From Bacteroidales bacterium (GTDB taxonomy: Bacteria > Bacteroidota > Bacteroidia > Bacteroidales > Lentimicrobiaceae): a stretch of 64,000 bases of DNA. The stretch is taken from positions 62,001 to 126,000 of the forward strand of contig JAEUTG010000004.1 in NCBI GenBank assembly GCA_016788045.1. The letters run 5' to 3'. The notes under the pieces were generated by a model, which made no database searches, was not told the origin of the DNA, and was given only the letters and a program-made list of their open reading frames with translations. This document shows, in pieces, positions 23,437-30,685 of the stretch (positions are counted from its first letter, which is position 1; each line of letters starts with the position of its first letter). The position numbers and the translations under genes were made by a program.

Positions 23437-24142
23437 ATCTCGACAAAAGAAAAACGGTAGGCTTCTTACCCGGATCAGGGTTGATTTTCTTCCATTCTGC
23501 TACTGAGGCACTTTTAACAGACTCATCCGCGAGGCTCAGGTTGCTGGCGATGCAGAGCATCACTTCATTGCTGCAACTGGAGAGGATGGATTCAATCATG
23601 TGTTTGTTGCGGTACGGCGCCTCAATAAAAATATGGGTCTGCCCGGTTTTAAAAAGATCCTTTTCTAACTCTTTGATTTTGCGAACCCTGTCGTGTTCTT
23701 TCACCGGAAGATAGCCGTGAAAAGTAAACTGTTGTCCATTGAAACCCGAGGCCATCAGCGAAAGGATAATGGAGGTAGGTCCGGATAGAGGTACCACCCT
23801 GATATTCATTTGCTGTGCCAGTTTAACTACACCAGAGCCCGGATCAGCCACCGCCGGACAGCCGGCTTCTGAAAGCAGGCCTGTGTCAATGCCGGCTTTA
23901 ATCTGCTCTAGAAAGGATAAGAGCTCATGGTCAGGCGTGTGCTCATTCAGCAGGTGAAAAACTACCTGGTCAAAATCCTTCATATACCCGCATTTCCTGA
24001 GAAACCTGCGGGCGGTACGCAGCTCTTCAACAATGAAAACATCCAGCTGTTTCATCAGTTGAAGGTTATAGGCCGGCAATACCTTATCCGGATCCGTTTC
24101 GCCAAGGGTGCTGGGAATGAGAAAGAGCGTTCCGGTTTTCAT
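23435..24142 (-). CDS. RsmI-like tetrapyrrole-methylase-fold SAM methyltransferase
   Basis: A 235-residue member of the tetrapyrrole methylase fold, related to 16S rRNA 2'-O-methyltransferase RsmI. It shows the N-terminal LFLIPSTLGETD, VEELRTARRFLR, the LSEAGCPAVADPGSGVV motif and PLSGPTSIILSLMASGF. It is shorter than canonical RsmI (about 280) and lacks its C-terminal helix. In Bacteroidota this shorter relative is often near dnaA and the LMW phosphatase, as here. RNA target not proven. The ATG is 11 bases after the PLP dehydratase stop, so the three genes likely form an operon. Confidence 0.85.
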   Translation of the reverse strand: MKTGTLFLIPSTLGETDPDKVLPAYNLQLMKQLDVFIVEELRTARRFLRKCGYMKDFDQVVFHLLNEHTPDHELLSFLEQIKAGIDTGLLSEAGCPAVADPGSGVVKLAQQMNIRVVPLSGPTSIILSLMASGFNGQQFTFHGYLPVKEHDRVRKIKELEKDLFKTGQTHIFIEAPYRNKHMIESILSSCSNEVMLCIASNLSLADESVKSASVAEWKKINPDPGKKPTVFLLSR

Positions 24143-24153
24143 GATGTTTGGTT

Positions 24154-25098
24154 TTAGAAAGGTAAAGCACTCAGATCTACATTCCCTCCAGAGAGTATAA
24201 TGCCAATTTCTGCTCCTTCAACCTGTACTTTTTTTTCAAGAATGGCAGCCAGCGGGACAGCGGAGGAGGGTTCCACAATGATCTTCATGCGTTCCCAGAT
24301 CAGTTTCATAGCTTCTCTGATAGCTTCTTCACTCACGGTAACAATCTGATGAACATGTTGTTGAATGATAGGGTAGGTGAGTGATCCCAACGATGTCAGC
24401 AAGCCATCGGCAATGGTTTGGGGGTTCTCTGAGGGAACGAAGATCCCACCATAGAAAGAACGGTAAGCATCGTCAGCTCCTGCAGGTTCTGCACCAATCA
24501 CTCTGACCTTTTGGCCGAAAAACCCGGCTGCCAGGGCAGTTCCGCTCAGAAGTCCGCCACCACCCACAGGAGCCATCACTACCTCCAGATCAGGCAACTC
24601 CGCTATCAATTCCATACATGCTGTTGCCTGCCCGGCGATAATTCTGTAATCGTTGTAGGGATGTATTTCAACAGCTCCGGTTTTGCGGATGACTGCCGCT
24701 AAGGTGCTCTCCCGCGCTGTGAGGGTGGGTTTGCAAAAAGTAATTACACCTCCGTATTCTTCTACTGCTTTGATCTTTAATTTGTTAGAATTTTCTGGCA
24801 TGACAATAAATGCCCTGGTTCCAAGCCGTTTGGCTGCCAGCGACAGGGCTGCAGCGTGATTTCCCGATGAATGTGTAGCTACTCCTTTGGTTAGATCATC
24901 CTGGCTTAGCTGAAGCAGGGCGTTGGTAGCCCCCCTCGATTTGAAAGCACCGGCTTTCTGAAAATTCTCACATTTAAACCGGATATTGCAGTTAAACATG
25001 CGGTTAATGGCCGAACTGCTGAGTACCGGGGTGCGGTGCAGGTAGGGCTTTATTCGCTCTGCTGCACTTATAACCGATTGTTTATCAAGTTGATTCAT
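24154..25098 (-). CDS. PLP-dependent threonine/serine dehydratase (or serine racemase)
   Basis: A 314-residue fold-type II PLP enzyme. The PLP lysine is Lys53 in GAFKSRGA, the phosphate loop is in SSGNHAAAL, and GGGGLLSG is the glycine-rich PLP motif. Its length is that of a catalytic-domain-only enzyme, lacking the ACT domain of ilvA (compare the second copy at 59406-60641). Reaction: dehydration of threonine or serine to the 2-oxo acid, or racemisation of serine; sequence alone does not decide. Its start overlaps the LMW phosphatase stop by four bases. Confidence 0.88.
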   Translation of the reverse strand: MNQLDKQSVISAAERIKPYLHRTPVLSSSAINRMFNCNIRFKCENFQKAGAFKSRGATNALLQLSQDDLTKGVATHSSGNHAAALSLAAKRLGTRAFIVMPENSNKLKIKAVEEYGGVITFCKPTLTARESTLAAVIRKTGAVEIHPYNDYRIIAGQATACMELIAELPDLEVVMAPVGGGGLLSGTALAAGFFGQKVRVIGAEPAGADDAYRSFYGGIFVPSENPQTIADGLLTSLGSLTYPIIQQHVHQIVTVSEEAIREAMKLIWERMKIIVEPSSAVPLAAILEKKVQVEGAEIGIILSGGNVDLSALPF

Positions 25099-28283: not shown

Positions 28284-29210
28284 ATGGACACACATCTGAA
28301 AGGTGAGATTGCTGCTTTGATTACTGCTGTATTCTGGACGATTACCGCGCTGGCCTTTGAGTCAGCAAGCAAAAAAGTAGGTTCTCTTGCCGTAAATATC
28401 CTCCGGCTGATTCTTGGACTTTTTTTTCTCAGCATATACGGATGGTTTACCAGCGGAAGTTTTTATCCACAGGGAGCCAGCCTGCATAACTGGGTGTGGT
28501 TATCCGTTTCAGGACTGATCGGTTTCGTACTTGGTGATTTGTTTCTTTTTCAGTCATTTACCATTATCGGTGCAAGGATCTCCATGCTGGTGATGGCTCT
28601 CTCCCCACCCATTGCCGCCATTACCGGATGGATTATGATGGGAGAAAGACTCAGTGCTCAGAGTATTGCCGGCATGGTTCTGACCCTGACAGGGATTAGT
28701 CTGGCTATCCTGGGAAGAAATAAAAACGAAACCGGTGCACTGATTTCAGGCAAAGGGAAGTATAACTATAAACTGAAGTATCCGTTGAAAGGATTGCTTT
28801 TTGCTTTCGGCGGTGCTGCAGGGCAGGGGATAGGCCTGGTGCTGAGTAAATATGGGATGCAGGATTACAATGTATTTGCTTCAACTCAAATCAGGGTAAT
28901 CACGGGTGTTCTGGGTTTTGCCCTCGTTATTTCGCTTTATGGGGGATGGCAAAGGGTCAGGATTGCTTTGAAAAATGCACCGGCTGTCAGAAGTCTTTCC
29001 CTTGGCGCTTTTTTCGGCCCTTTCCTCGGTGTTGCATTTTCGCTTTTATCGGTTAAGTATACCTCCTCAGGAATCGCTTCAACAATTATGGCTTTAACAC
29101 CGGTGCTCATCATTGCACCTTCGGCTTTGCTGTTTAAAGAGAGGGTTACGCTTCGCGAAATAGCCGGTGCCGTAATCGCGGTGCTCGGAGTCTCTCTTTT
29201 CTTTTTCTGA
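28284..29210 (+). CDS. EamA/DMT family transporter
   Basis: A 308-residue inner-membrane protein with ten hydrophobic segments in two EamA repeats (about residues 5-140 and 165-305). It starts MDTHLKGEIAALITAVFWTI, and the second repeat starts around YPLKGLLFAFGGAAGQG. The family exports metabolites or amino acids; the substrate is unknown. A TTATCCACA word inside the gene (28463-28471) looks like a coincidental DnaA box. Confidence 0.9.
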   Translation: MDTHLKGEIAALITAVFWTITALAFESASKKVGSLAVNILRLILGLFFLSIYGWFTSGSFYPQGASLHNWVWLSVSGLIGFVLGDLFLFQSFTIIGARISMLVMALSPPIAAITGWIMMGERLSAQSIAGMVLTLTGISLAILGRNKNETGALISGKGKYNYKLKYPLKGLLFAFGGAAGQGIGLVLSKYGMQDYNVFASTQIRVITGVLGFALVISLYGGWQRVRIALKNAPAVRSLSLGAFFGPFLGVAFSLLSVKYTSSGIASTIMALTPVLIIAPSALLFKERVTLREIAGAVIAVLGVSLFFF

Positions 29211-29222
29211 TGCCAGGCTGCT

Positions 29223-29678
29223 TTAATTCCTGTTCCTGAGACCTTTCAGGCGTTCAGTGATCGCGGCATGCTCGGTTTCTGACAGTCTTATCCGATCCCT
29301 GTTCTCCGGATCAACAGATTGCTGAAGCAGGCCGTACCAGTCTCCATTATCAGCCAGATCGCCCTGCTTTCGCGGAATAATGTGCAGGTGAAGGTGACTT
29401 ATACTCTGACCTGCTTCAAGGCCCTCCTGAAGCGACCAGTCGTAGGCCTCACTCTCAAATGCTTCACATAGAAATGCAGTGATGTCTCTTGCAAAAGAAA
29501 AGAATTCAGAGATCTCACCCTCAGTTAGTTCGAAAAGACTGGTAACATGTTGGTAAGGAACCACAAGGCTATGCCCCGGCAGAATGGGTGAAATGTTGTA
29601 AATAGCGGCAAAACCGTTGCCGGAAGCAAATACAACCGGGCTATGTTCAAGACTGCAAAACGGACAAATTGTGTTCAT
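29223..29678 (-). CDS. HIT family nucleotide-binding protein
   Basis: A 151-residue histidine-triad protein, with the catalytic HxHxHxx motif in HLHLHIIPRK (about residues 98-107) and the N-terminal CPFCSLE (a Cx2C pair). HIT proteins hydrolyse or transfer nucleotides such as AMP-lysine or dinucleoside polyphosphates. The start codon overlaps the stop of the upstream gene by one base (TGATG), which suggests translational coupling. The neighbour is a glycosylase-like protein (29678-30685), a pairing I do not know. Confidence 0.9.
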   Translation of the reverse strand: MNTICPFCSLEHSPVVFASGNGFAAIYNISPILPGHSLVVPYQHVTSLFELTEGEISEFFSFARDITAFLCEAFESEAYDWSLQEGLEAGQSISHLHLHIIPRKQGDLADNGDWYGLLQQSVDPENRDRIRLSETEHAAITERLKGLRNRN

Positions 29679-30685
29679 CAGTAAAAATGTGTTTCAGTAA
29701 AAGGCTCCCAAAGCTCACGGTAATCCTGGTTCTCCGCACCCTTACAATTTGTTTCAAAACTACACTTTTTATGATTTGTCAGCAAGATCATGTTTTCGAA
29801 AGTACAGGGTTGCTTCATACAGACATGTGCTGCACAGAGGGTGGTTTCGTTACAGCACGAGCGCCCGAGTGGCCAGAAAATGTCGTTCATGATCCATGGA
29901 TCAACACCTGATTCCCTGGAAATCAGCTGCATAGCCTCAATGCATGCCTGCCTGACAGGCTCTTCGGTTTTAAGTACCCTCTTTCCGGAAAGTGCCTGCT
30001 TAAGTATTGGGTCAGTGATTTCGACACACCCCATCCTCAACAACACCCGCATCATGTGATAATCCATGATGGGGATATAGTTGAGGGTATCTTCAATACT
30101 ATATAAGCCGCTGTCTGACAATAGCTTGGCAAGGAATGAAGACTTCTTTCGTGCCGGATCAGAGAAAGTCAGGCTTTGTTCCAATAACTCGTAAAGTCCC
30201 ATTCCATTGTTCAGCAGGTGATTTCCGGTTGAACCCAGCAGAAGAGTATAACTGCCGTTGAAACGATGAATTACAAAGTTGCTGAGCTCTTTCATCAGCA
30301 TGATTCTTTCTTCAACCCGGTCGAGGCTTGAGTGTTCTGCAACCTGATTGTCAGAAAAAGCAAGCCTCAGCGACAAGGAAAGTTCTTCCTCATTTGTTCC
30401 GGAGATGTAAGTTGGATCCAGAAGTAACGGCTGGTGCAGGGCGATCTCACAAAACACTTTTTCTATGTATTCCCAACCATACAGATTGTATCTATTGCTC
30501 ACCAGGTTTCTGGTCTGGTGACAGATGGCTACTGAATAAAACAGCATCCGAAGCTTCAGTTCTGAGCTGACAGGCAACGTAAGAAACAGGCGGGTGCTGA
30601 ATTCAGGCCTGATAACCAGATTTCTGACACCTGAAGCCACCTGCCTGCATTGCTGCTGGTTAACCATTACCAATGGACTTTCCAT
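29678..30685 (-). CDS. Divergent HhH-GPD/DNA-glycosylase-like protein with cysteine-rich C-terminus
   Basis: A 335-residue, mostly helical protein that I cannot assign firmly. Near residue 210 it has MDYHMMRVLLRMG, which resembles the VDTHV-RV-R-G segment of endonuclease III-type glycosylases, where the Asp is catalytic. Downstream comes WIMNDIFWPLGRSCCNETTL, and seven cysteines fall within about 43 residues (SCC, LC, VC, PC, KC, NC), as in an iron-sulfur or zinc module. The classic helix-hairpin-helix LPGVG loop is missing, so it is at best a remote relative (queuosine-salvage and AGOG proteins share the fold). It is coupled to the HIT gene; function unknown. Confidence 0.5.
   Translation of the reverse strand: MESPLVMVNQQQCRQVASGVRNLVIRPEFSTRLFLTLPVSSELKLRMLFYSVAICHQTRNLVSNRYNLYGWEYIEKVFCEIALHQPLLLDPTYISGTNEEELSLSLRLAFSDNQVAEHSSLDRVEERIMLMKELSNFVIHRFNGSYTLLLGSTGNHLLNNGMGLYELLEQSLTFSDPARKKSSFLAKLLSDSGLYSIEDTLNYIPIMDYHMMRVLLRMGCVEITDPILKQALSGKRVLKTEEPVRQACIEAMQLISRESGVDPWIMNDIFWPLGRSCCNETTLCAAHVCMKQPCTFENMILLTNHKKCSFETNCKGAENQDYRELWEPFTETHFY

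Follow-up and report, generated by a model that had tools for sequence, protein, structure and literature searches.

A pair of overlapping genes in a 64,000-nucleotide stretch of DNA (the window), taken from a 4.7-Mb Bacteroidales genome, encodes a cysteine-rich protein of 335 residues, named GLY here, and a HIT hydrolase. Which reaction does GLY carry out, does its cysteine segment hold a metal cluster, and what does the HIT protein contribute? The initial annotation had seen in the pair a glycosylase-like enzyme coupled to a nucleotide-processing one, in a new salvage or repair route.

Results

The GLY-HIT locus

The open reading frames and the sequence of the junction, TTTTACTGATGAACA, confirmed the arrangement first described: the TGA stop of GLY and the ATG start of HIT overlap by one base. 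A putative transporter gene converges on the pair and is its conserved neighbour within the genus (cluster c3, 16 loci). The features of the locus are the following.

28284..29210, plus strand: putative EamA/DMT-type transporter (from a look at the sequence), convergent to the GLY-HIT pair
29223..29678, minus strand: HIT, 151-aa Fhit-type hydrolase, one-base overlap (TGATG) with the upstream GLY gene
29678..30685, minus strand: GLY, 335-aa protein of the Qng1 superfamily, N-glycosidase-like, with a 7-Cys loop near its C-terminus (open reading frame, Qng1 fold, DUF2419 profile matches)
30146..30148, minus strand: K180 codon, aligned to Qng1 K199 in alignment A6, invariant in 67/67 homologues
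30026..30064, minus strand: DYHMMRVLLRMGC, residues 208-220, containing D208, aligned to Qng1 D231 and invariant in 67/67 homologues
29744..29857, minus strand: 7-Cys segment, residues 277-314, candidate Fe-S loop with an inserted Cys-rich piece (invariance, profile alignment, structural ranges)
29681..29692, minus strand: C-terminal THFY, the counterpart of the T-x-x-Y end found in Qng1 and in the sister family, with T332 and Y335 conserved (alignment A6)

GLY is predicted to have the fold of Qng1

The AlphaFold2 model of GLY, built on 21 homologues, exhibits a pLDDT of 92.9 and a pTM of 0.90. Searching with this model in Foldseek led to DUF2419/Qng1 structures at all of the ranks 1 to 11 (E 4e-8 to 4e-7), with TM scores by target of 0.58-0.68. 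The structural alignment with Qng1 (VIA-align) gave a Z of 25.7 over 273 of the 335 residues, and the next-best folds were AGOG (Z 15.8), EndoIII (Z 15.0) and MutY (Z about 15). The kinship to HhH-GPD enzymes that had been suspected is thus found at the level of the superfold, and the queuosine-salvage proteins, also proposed as fold candidates, are the best match.

The sequence profiles point in the same direction. The GLY profile retrieved human Qng1 (7ugk) among the PDB sequences with an E of 7e-4, and 17 of 21 members of the GLY family matched PF10343 (best E 1.4e-8). Four relatives score above the cut-off of this model, while the GLY of the window, with 16.4 bits, stays under the 25 bits required. 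The NCBIfam scan of the window GLY gave no match, and a canonical Q_salvage match was not found in its genome. PF09171 (AGOG) was matched weakly by one member only of the family alignment A1; the other weak Pfam matches (PF09674/DUF2400, HEAT and others) came from scattered members at chance level and were rejected, as were the chance matches to Cas9 (E about 0.24) obtained when the profile was run against the PDB. The LPGVG-type HhH DNA-binding hairpin is absent from the sequence, as the initial annotation had noted, and from the family alignment as well. By its predicted structure and its profiles, GLY is a divergent relative in the Qng1 (DUF2419) superfamily, of the HhH-GPD superfold. We file it as a superfamily relative and not as Qng1, because it does not reach the PF10343 cut-off and the aromatic N-F-x-F-W motif of Qng1 is absent.

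The catalytic residues of Qng1 are retained

Bacterial Qng1 has been crystallized as K199C (7u5a) and D231N (7ulc) forms, according to the titles of the structures, and both positions were checked in the sequence. D231, the Asp of FADYK, aligns to D208 of GLY in MDYHMMRVLLRMG (residues 207-219). The segment that had been likened to a catalytic Asp region therefore does contain, in the Asp of MDYH, the equivalent of the catalytic Asp. Alignment A6, which joins two plasmid-borne bacterial proteins annotated as queuosine salvage, Qng1 fragments, the kinase fusions described below and GLY, has invariant columns at D197, K201, D232, Y233, G243 and R272 (Variovorax numbering), K201 being the column of Qng1 K199 and GLY K180. 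K187, considered as catalytic Lys by an analogy with AGOG, was ruled out, since the alignment with canonical Qng1 gives K180.

In the 67 full-length homologues, K180, K181, K187, D208-Y-H, R213, R245 and T332 are invariant, and C55-H-Q-T is kept save in one row that differs at H56. This CHQT takes the place of the Qng1 N-F-x-F-W motif, which reads HQFGFW in the sister family (alignment A6). The base pocket of GLY would then be changed relative to Qng1 and, as the aromatic motif is replaced, the substrate is probably shifted.

Distribution of GLY

Homologues of GLY were found in 23 of 99 related genomes and at 72 loci of a genome-contig collection, nearly all of them in Bacteroidales-type MAGs; the relatives named in this collection are Lentimicrobium and other Bacteroidales MAGs. 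Among 395 genomes sampled across Bacteroidota only the genome of the window carries GLY, and the family is therefore restricted to some Bacteroidales-type lineages and a sister phylum. Neither GLY nor the sister domain had a match in the plasmid collection, in which canonical Qng1 is present.

Some copies (L060, L092, L094, L095 and L096) come from contigs assigned by binning to Micrarchaeota, Rhabdochlamydia, Patescibacteria and Aenigmatarchaeota. L060 and L094 fall within the Bacteroidales tree of GLY, which makes an error of binning or a transfer likely. The copy at L096:3977-4985 consists of two overlapping open reading frames, a frameshift-like split.

A sister family fused to a PfkB kinase

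The entry point to the sister family was a distant match of the genome scan (L097), in a MAG named Deltaproteobacteria UBA796, which we take to be Myxococcota in current usage. Across 377 genomes of the phylum of this MAG, 27 places matched most of the domain; a few loci of this phylum (L142-L145) were too fragmentary for their architecture to be read. The sister proteins, of about 600 aa, present a PfkB kinase followed by the glycosidase domain, with the catalytic motifs of both intact. The kinase domain matched PF00294 (E 1e-24 for L151) and its TGAGD motif is invariant in 12 fusions; one sister protein, L165, is without kinase. A NupC/CNT nucleoside transporter is encoded in 8 of the 20 sister loci fetched and is divergently adjacent in 5 of them (nupC E 9e-118). 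At L159:8567-10700 and L163:4004-5389, two to three related genes of ~230 aa lie between the fusion and NupC (cluster c17).

The best family models for the sister kinase are sugar kinases, with nucleoside kinase lower in the ranking; we infer that it acts on a nucleoside. The substrate of Qng1 is a 5'-monophosphate (PMC11130926, PMC13421765), so the fusion of a kinase to such a glycosidase is chemically sensible. Of the salvage or repair route first suggested, the salvage part is plausible and is better illustrated by this kinase-fused family than by the HIT gene; nothing supports the repair part. The literature that we searched, which includes few subscription journals, contained no description of the GLY branch. 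It also held no paper connecting queuosine salvage to iron-sulfur in Bacteroidetes, HhH-GPD to a PfkB fusion, or queuosine to a nucleoside kinase; judged by title, none of the papers found there with both queuosine and PfkB deals with such an enzyme.

Purine-catabolism genes next to GLY

A Se-type xanthine dehydrogenase and/or an SsnA-like amidohydrolase is encoded nearby in 21 of 67 GLY loci, outside the genus. These genes often stand immediately upstream and downstream of GLY on the same strand, sometimes overlapping it, and the loci sometimes add a D-hydantoinase (above cut-off) and a threonine-synthase-like PLP gene. The xanthine dehydrogenase belongs to TIGR03311 (Se_dep_XDH), whose cut-off is exceeded by the one neighbour scanned, and the SsnA-like neighbour scores below the SsnA cut-offs. 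The linkage is dispersed over the GLY tree, with 8 changes of which at least 6 are forced. At the genome level, the dehydrogenase is present in 12 of 23 GLY genomes versus 14 of the 76 others (p 0.0025 overall and 0.058 outside the genus, relatedness being ignored). Xanthine dehydrogenase/SsnA are missing from 11 of the 23 GLY genomes, and GLY persists in members of the genus devoid of them; they are, thus, a frequent and not an obligatory partner. Since the relatives of GLY are accompanied by nucleoside importers, predicted nucleoside kinases and enzymes of purine breakdown, a role in salvage or catabolism is probable, rather than one in DNA repair.

The genome of the window has its own Se-type xanthine dehydrogenase gene, with one in-frame TAG, beside an SsnA-like gene (G000:C32:25507-28053 and 23683-24939), far from GLY. 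Single stops in the Se-type gene also occur in G015 and G027. Outside the genus, a protein of ~150 aa with a CoA-binding domain is often encoded immediately upstream of GLY (L045:3538-3987 and 13 further loci, cluster c5).

Queuosine salvage

Like Qng1, which liberates the vitamin-like base queuine from its nucleotide, GLY could be a true queuine salvage enzyme, cleaving queuosine-5'-monophosphate so that TGT re-inserts the queuine, as in eukaryotes. Such a role would agree with the closeness of Qng1 by fold and profile and with the retained catalytic residues. It would also fit the host genes in two respects: a full QueC match is found in 0 of 23 GLY genomes versus 22 of the 76 others (relatedness ignored, Fisher p 0.0015 for all 99 genomes and 0.10 outside the genus), so scavenging of a Q precursor is possible, and TGT is near universal. 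However, all 99 genomes (99 of 99) encode QueA, so that Q can be finished from preQ0/preQ1, and a preQ1-type TGT is not known to use queuine. The loss of the N-F-x-F-W motif also speaks against this role, as do the recurrent neighbours, which are purine-catabolism genes and include no Q genes.

Within the genus (the genome of the window and 18 relatives) there is no full QueC match, QueA is kept and TGT is found in nearly all members, so that the genus looks like a preQ0/preQ1 scavenger. With QueC missing, QueA universal and TGT near universal, it appears that the hosts scavenge preQ0/preQ1 for their Q and would have no need of queuine; a need arising from lost Q synthesis was rejected, QueA being universal. 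We regard a true queuine salvage enzyme as unlikely, and recycling of queuine for tRNA as less likely than the salvage or catabolism of a purine or modified purine, though Q-5'-MP itself might still be a substrate.

The C-terminal cysteine loop

Seven cysteines had been counted in about 43 residues of GLY. The number holds and the span is tighter, the seven falling within 38 residues with the spacing CCx5Cx4Cx4Cx13Cx5C. When the 12 Cys of GLY were shuffled, seven fell within 38 residues in 0.36% of the trials. All seven (C277, C278, C284, C289, C294, C308 and C314) are invariant in the 67 full-length homologues, with X at 278 in one row, and the clustering is therefore not due to chance; the conservation in homologues on which the initial annotation had staked its proposal is found in full.

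Canonical Qng1 has no Cys loop at this position, its last helix (LWxxR) continuing to an LTRTTxY-like end (alignment A6). In GLY and in the sister family the loop is inserted exactly between the Qng1-type last helix and the C-terminal end. The sister loop is C-x7-C-x2-C-x5-C; its four Cys do not vary among the 12 fusions aligned, and L147 differs in a last spacing shorter by one. The EndoIII loop is C-x6-C-x2-C-x5-C.

The two families align with an hhalign E of 3e-27, in which C308-x5-C314 of GLY falls on the last Cys pair of the sister family. In the structural alignments, the range ends pair EndoIII (2abk) residue 208 with sister-model residue 294, and EndoIII residue 209 with GLY-model residue 320. 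An ungapped back-count from these ends matches C203 of EndoIII (textbook numbering) to C289 of the sister family and to C314 of GLY, and for this reason C308-x5-C314 is likely the equivalent of the last EndoIII-type pair. C278 is likely the first EndoIII-type Cys, and one of C284, C289 and C294 the second; hhalign gives the same pairing for the first Cys and for the last pair. As four Cys have equivalents in the sister loop, GLY has three extra Cys, which fall within an insertion relative to the sister family.

What is new in GLY is, then, a Cys loop at the place of the EndoIII [4Fe-4S] loop. The likeness to an iron-sulfur module recorded at the outset stands in this positional sense, for EndoIII and MutY carry their Fe-S there, and the loop of GLY probably holds a [4Fe-4S] cluster, as predicted from sequence and model. 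The 7-Cys loop of Bacteroidales could alternatively bind Zn or two metals. If the module were a structural zinc site or a redox/metal sensor, GLY might be a regulated or inactive glycosidase, and the spacing of the seven Cys, not an exact match to EndoIII, together with the extra Cys of the insertion would be in keeping with this. Against it stand the invariance of every catalytic-site residue, the EndoIII-like four-Cys loop of the sister family and the alignment of C308-x5-C314 to the last pair of that loop; we hold it to be somewhat less probable even than queuine salvage.

The HIT partner

The HIT protein matches PF01230 (E 8.9e-21) with an HLHLH triad (H-x-H-x-H), and its nearest solved structures are of the Fhit type (PDB Fhit/Ap3A hydrolase, E 4e-19). 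Its gene is the immediate downstream neighbour of GLY in all 15 homologues from the genus and in G057, and the one-base overlap is retained in 11 of the 14 in-genus contigs read. In a few more loci HIT is about 0.9-1.8 kb from GLY, and in most others it is absent from the stretch fetched. In the 99 genomes, HIT (over 95 bits) and GLY are shared by 18 and occur alone in 5 and 5; outside the genus they are shared by 3 and occur alone in 5 and 3 (p 0.012, relatedness ignored). G008 and G009 contain HIT without GLY. On the GLY tree, the linkage requires 4 changes. The expectation that homologues lie beside HIT genes holds, therefore, for the genus and fails for most homologues outside it, and strong coupling as a general rule was ruled out: HIT is a lineage-specific neighbour of GLY, rarely coupled to it outside the genus.

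Fhit-type enzymes liberate NMPs from dinucleoside polyphosphates. From the adjacency of the two genes, NMPs released by HIT may be substrates of GLY, and HIT need not share the pathway of GLY. That GLY would excise bases from DNA or RNA as EndoIII and AGOG do, while HIT cleaned adenylated ends like aprataxin, is very improbable in spite of the HhH-GPD fold, the catalytic Asp, the Fe-S-like loop and the AGOG and EndoIII scores, given that Qng1 is far closer, the DNA-binding hairpin is missing, the sister proteins carry a fused PfkB kinase, frequently with a nucleoside importer next to them, and HIT is Fhit-like and not aprataxin; fold ranking and context led us to reject a DNA repair identity.

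Discussion

Proposed function

We favour, with a confidence somewhat above even, GLY being an N-glycosidase of nucleoside 5'-monophosphates that probably holds an Fe-S cluster and acts in the salvage or catabolism of purines or modified purines. The fold, the family, the conserved catalytic-site and Cys residues, the kinase fusion and the gene neighbours are results of the analysis; the proposal extends them to the reaction, the substrate, the cluster and the role of HIT. GLY would bind a nucleoside 5'-monophosphate, probably of a purine or modified purine, and D208, with K180, would cleave the N-glycosidic bond as in Qng1, yielding the free base and ribose 5-phosphate. The Cys-rich loop just ahead of the C-terminal strand would carry a [4Fe-4S] cluster, as in EndoIII/MutY. 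In the sister family, NupC would import a nucleoside, the fused PfkB kinase would phosphorylate it and the glycosidase domain would free the base. In many Bacteroidales, the freed base could pass to xanthine dehydrogenase, the SsnA-like amidohydrolase and hydantoinase. In the genus of the window, the Fhit-like HIT protein might provide the NMP through cleavage of a dinucleotide polyphosphate or some other nucleotidyl compound.

A broader proposal is tentative, and we would not yet bet on it: these proteins may form an undescribed class of Fe-S NMP N-glycosidases of Qng1 stock, an unrecognised entry to the anaerobic breakdown of purines, possibly oxidised ones such as 8-oxo-GMP. It would take the form of importer-kinase-Fe-S glycosidase in Myxococcota-like bacteria, of glycosidase-xanthine dehydrogenase-SsnA-hydantoinase in Bacteroidales, and of a variant with Fhit-like HIT in the genus of the window.

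If the preferred reading of GLY as an NMP N-glycosidase is true, the Qng1 glycosidases, known for queuosine salvage, extend into a large branch in bacteria that has gained a metal-binding loop and probably acts on a different substrate, and nucleotide glycosidases become linked to the Fe-S DNA glycosylases. The role of the cluster, a long-standing question for EndoIII and MutY, could then be tested in an enzyme without DNA to scan, and the kinase fusion offers a direct biochemical handle on the substrate.

Comparison with known systems

The reductive uric acid pathway has XdhD, SsnA and HyuA among its steps (PMC12507026). In a likeness to the anaerobic gene cluster described there, GLY is often flanked by a Se-type xanthine dehydrogenase gene and an SsnA-like one, with a D-hydantoinase and a PLP-enzyme gene added in some loci; the passages of that account consulted mention no N-glycosidase. 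The 151-aa HIT protein resembles Fhit (Ap3A hydrolase) in its type and its HLHLH triad, and differs from it in being bacterial and in overlapping a glycosidase gene. The kinase fusion has work-alikes, by analogy only, in the PsuK-PsuG pairs and the nucleotide nucleosidase PpnN. In pairs of the PsuK-PsuG type, a PfkB kinase forms the nucleoside 5'-phosphate and a glycosidase frees the base and ribose-5-P; the glycosidase folds of these pairs and of PpnN are unrelated to GLY.

Among the enzymes of the same superfold, the 8-oxoguanine glycosylase AGOG, second-best by fold, acts in DNA repair and, to our knowledge, lacks an Fe-S loop. EndoIII and MutY share with GLY the superfold, the position of the catalytic Asp and the location of the Cys loop after the last helix. 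Unlike GLY, they possess the HhH hairpin, their Cys spacing differs from that of the Bacteroidales GLY, and the context of GLY is nucleoside metabolism; the sister-family loop exceeds the textbook EndoIII loop by one residue. The queuosine-5'-monophosphate N-glycosidase Qng1/DUF2419 (PF10343; 7u07, 7u91, 7ugk) shares with GLY the fold of the whole chain, the K199 and D231 equivalents, the EER motif, the invariant Arg and the T-x-x-Y C-terminus, whereas the sequence identity is about 15%, the gene neighbours differ and the 7-Cys loop is an addition of GLY.
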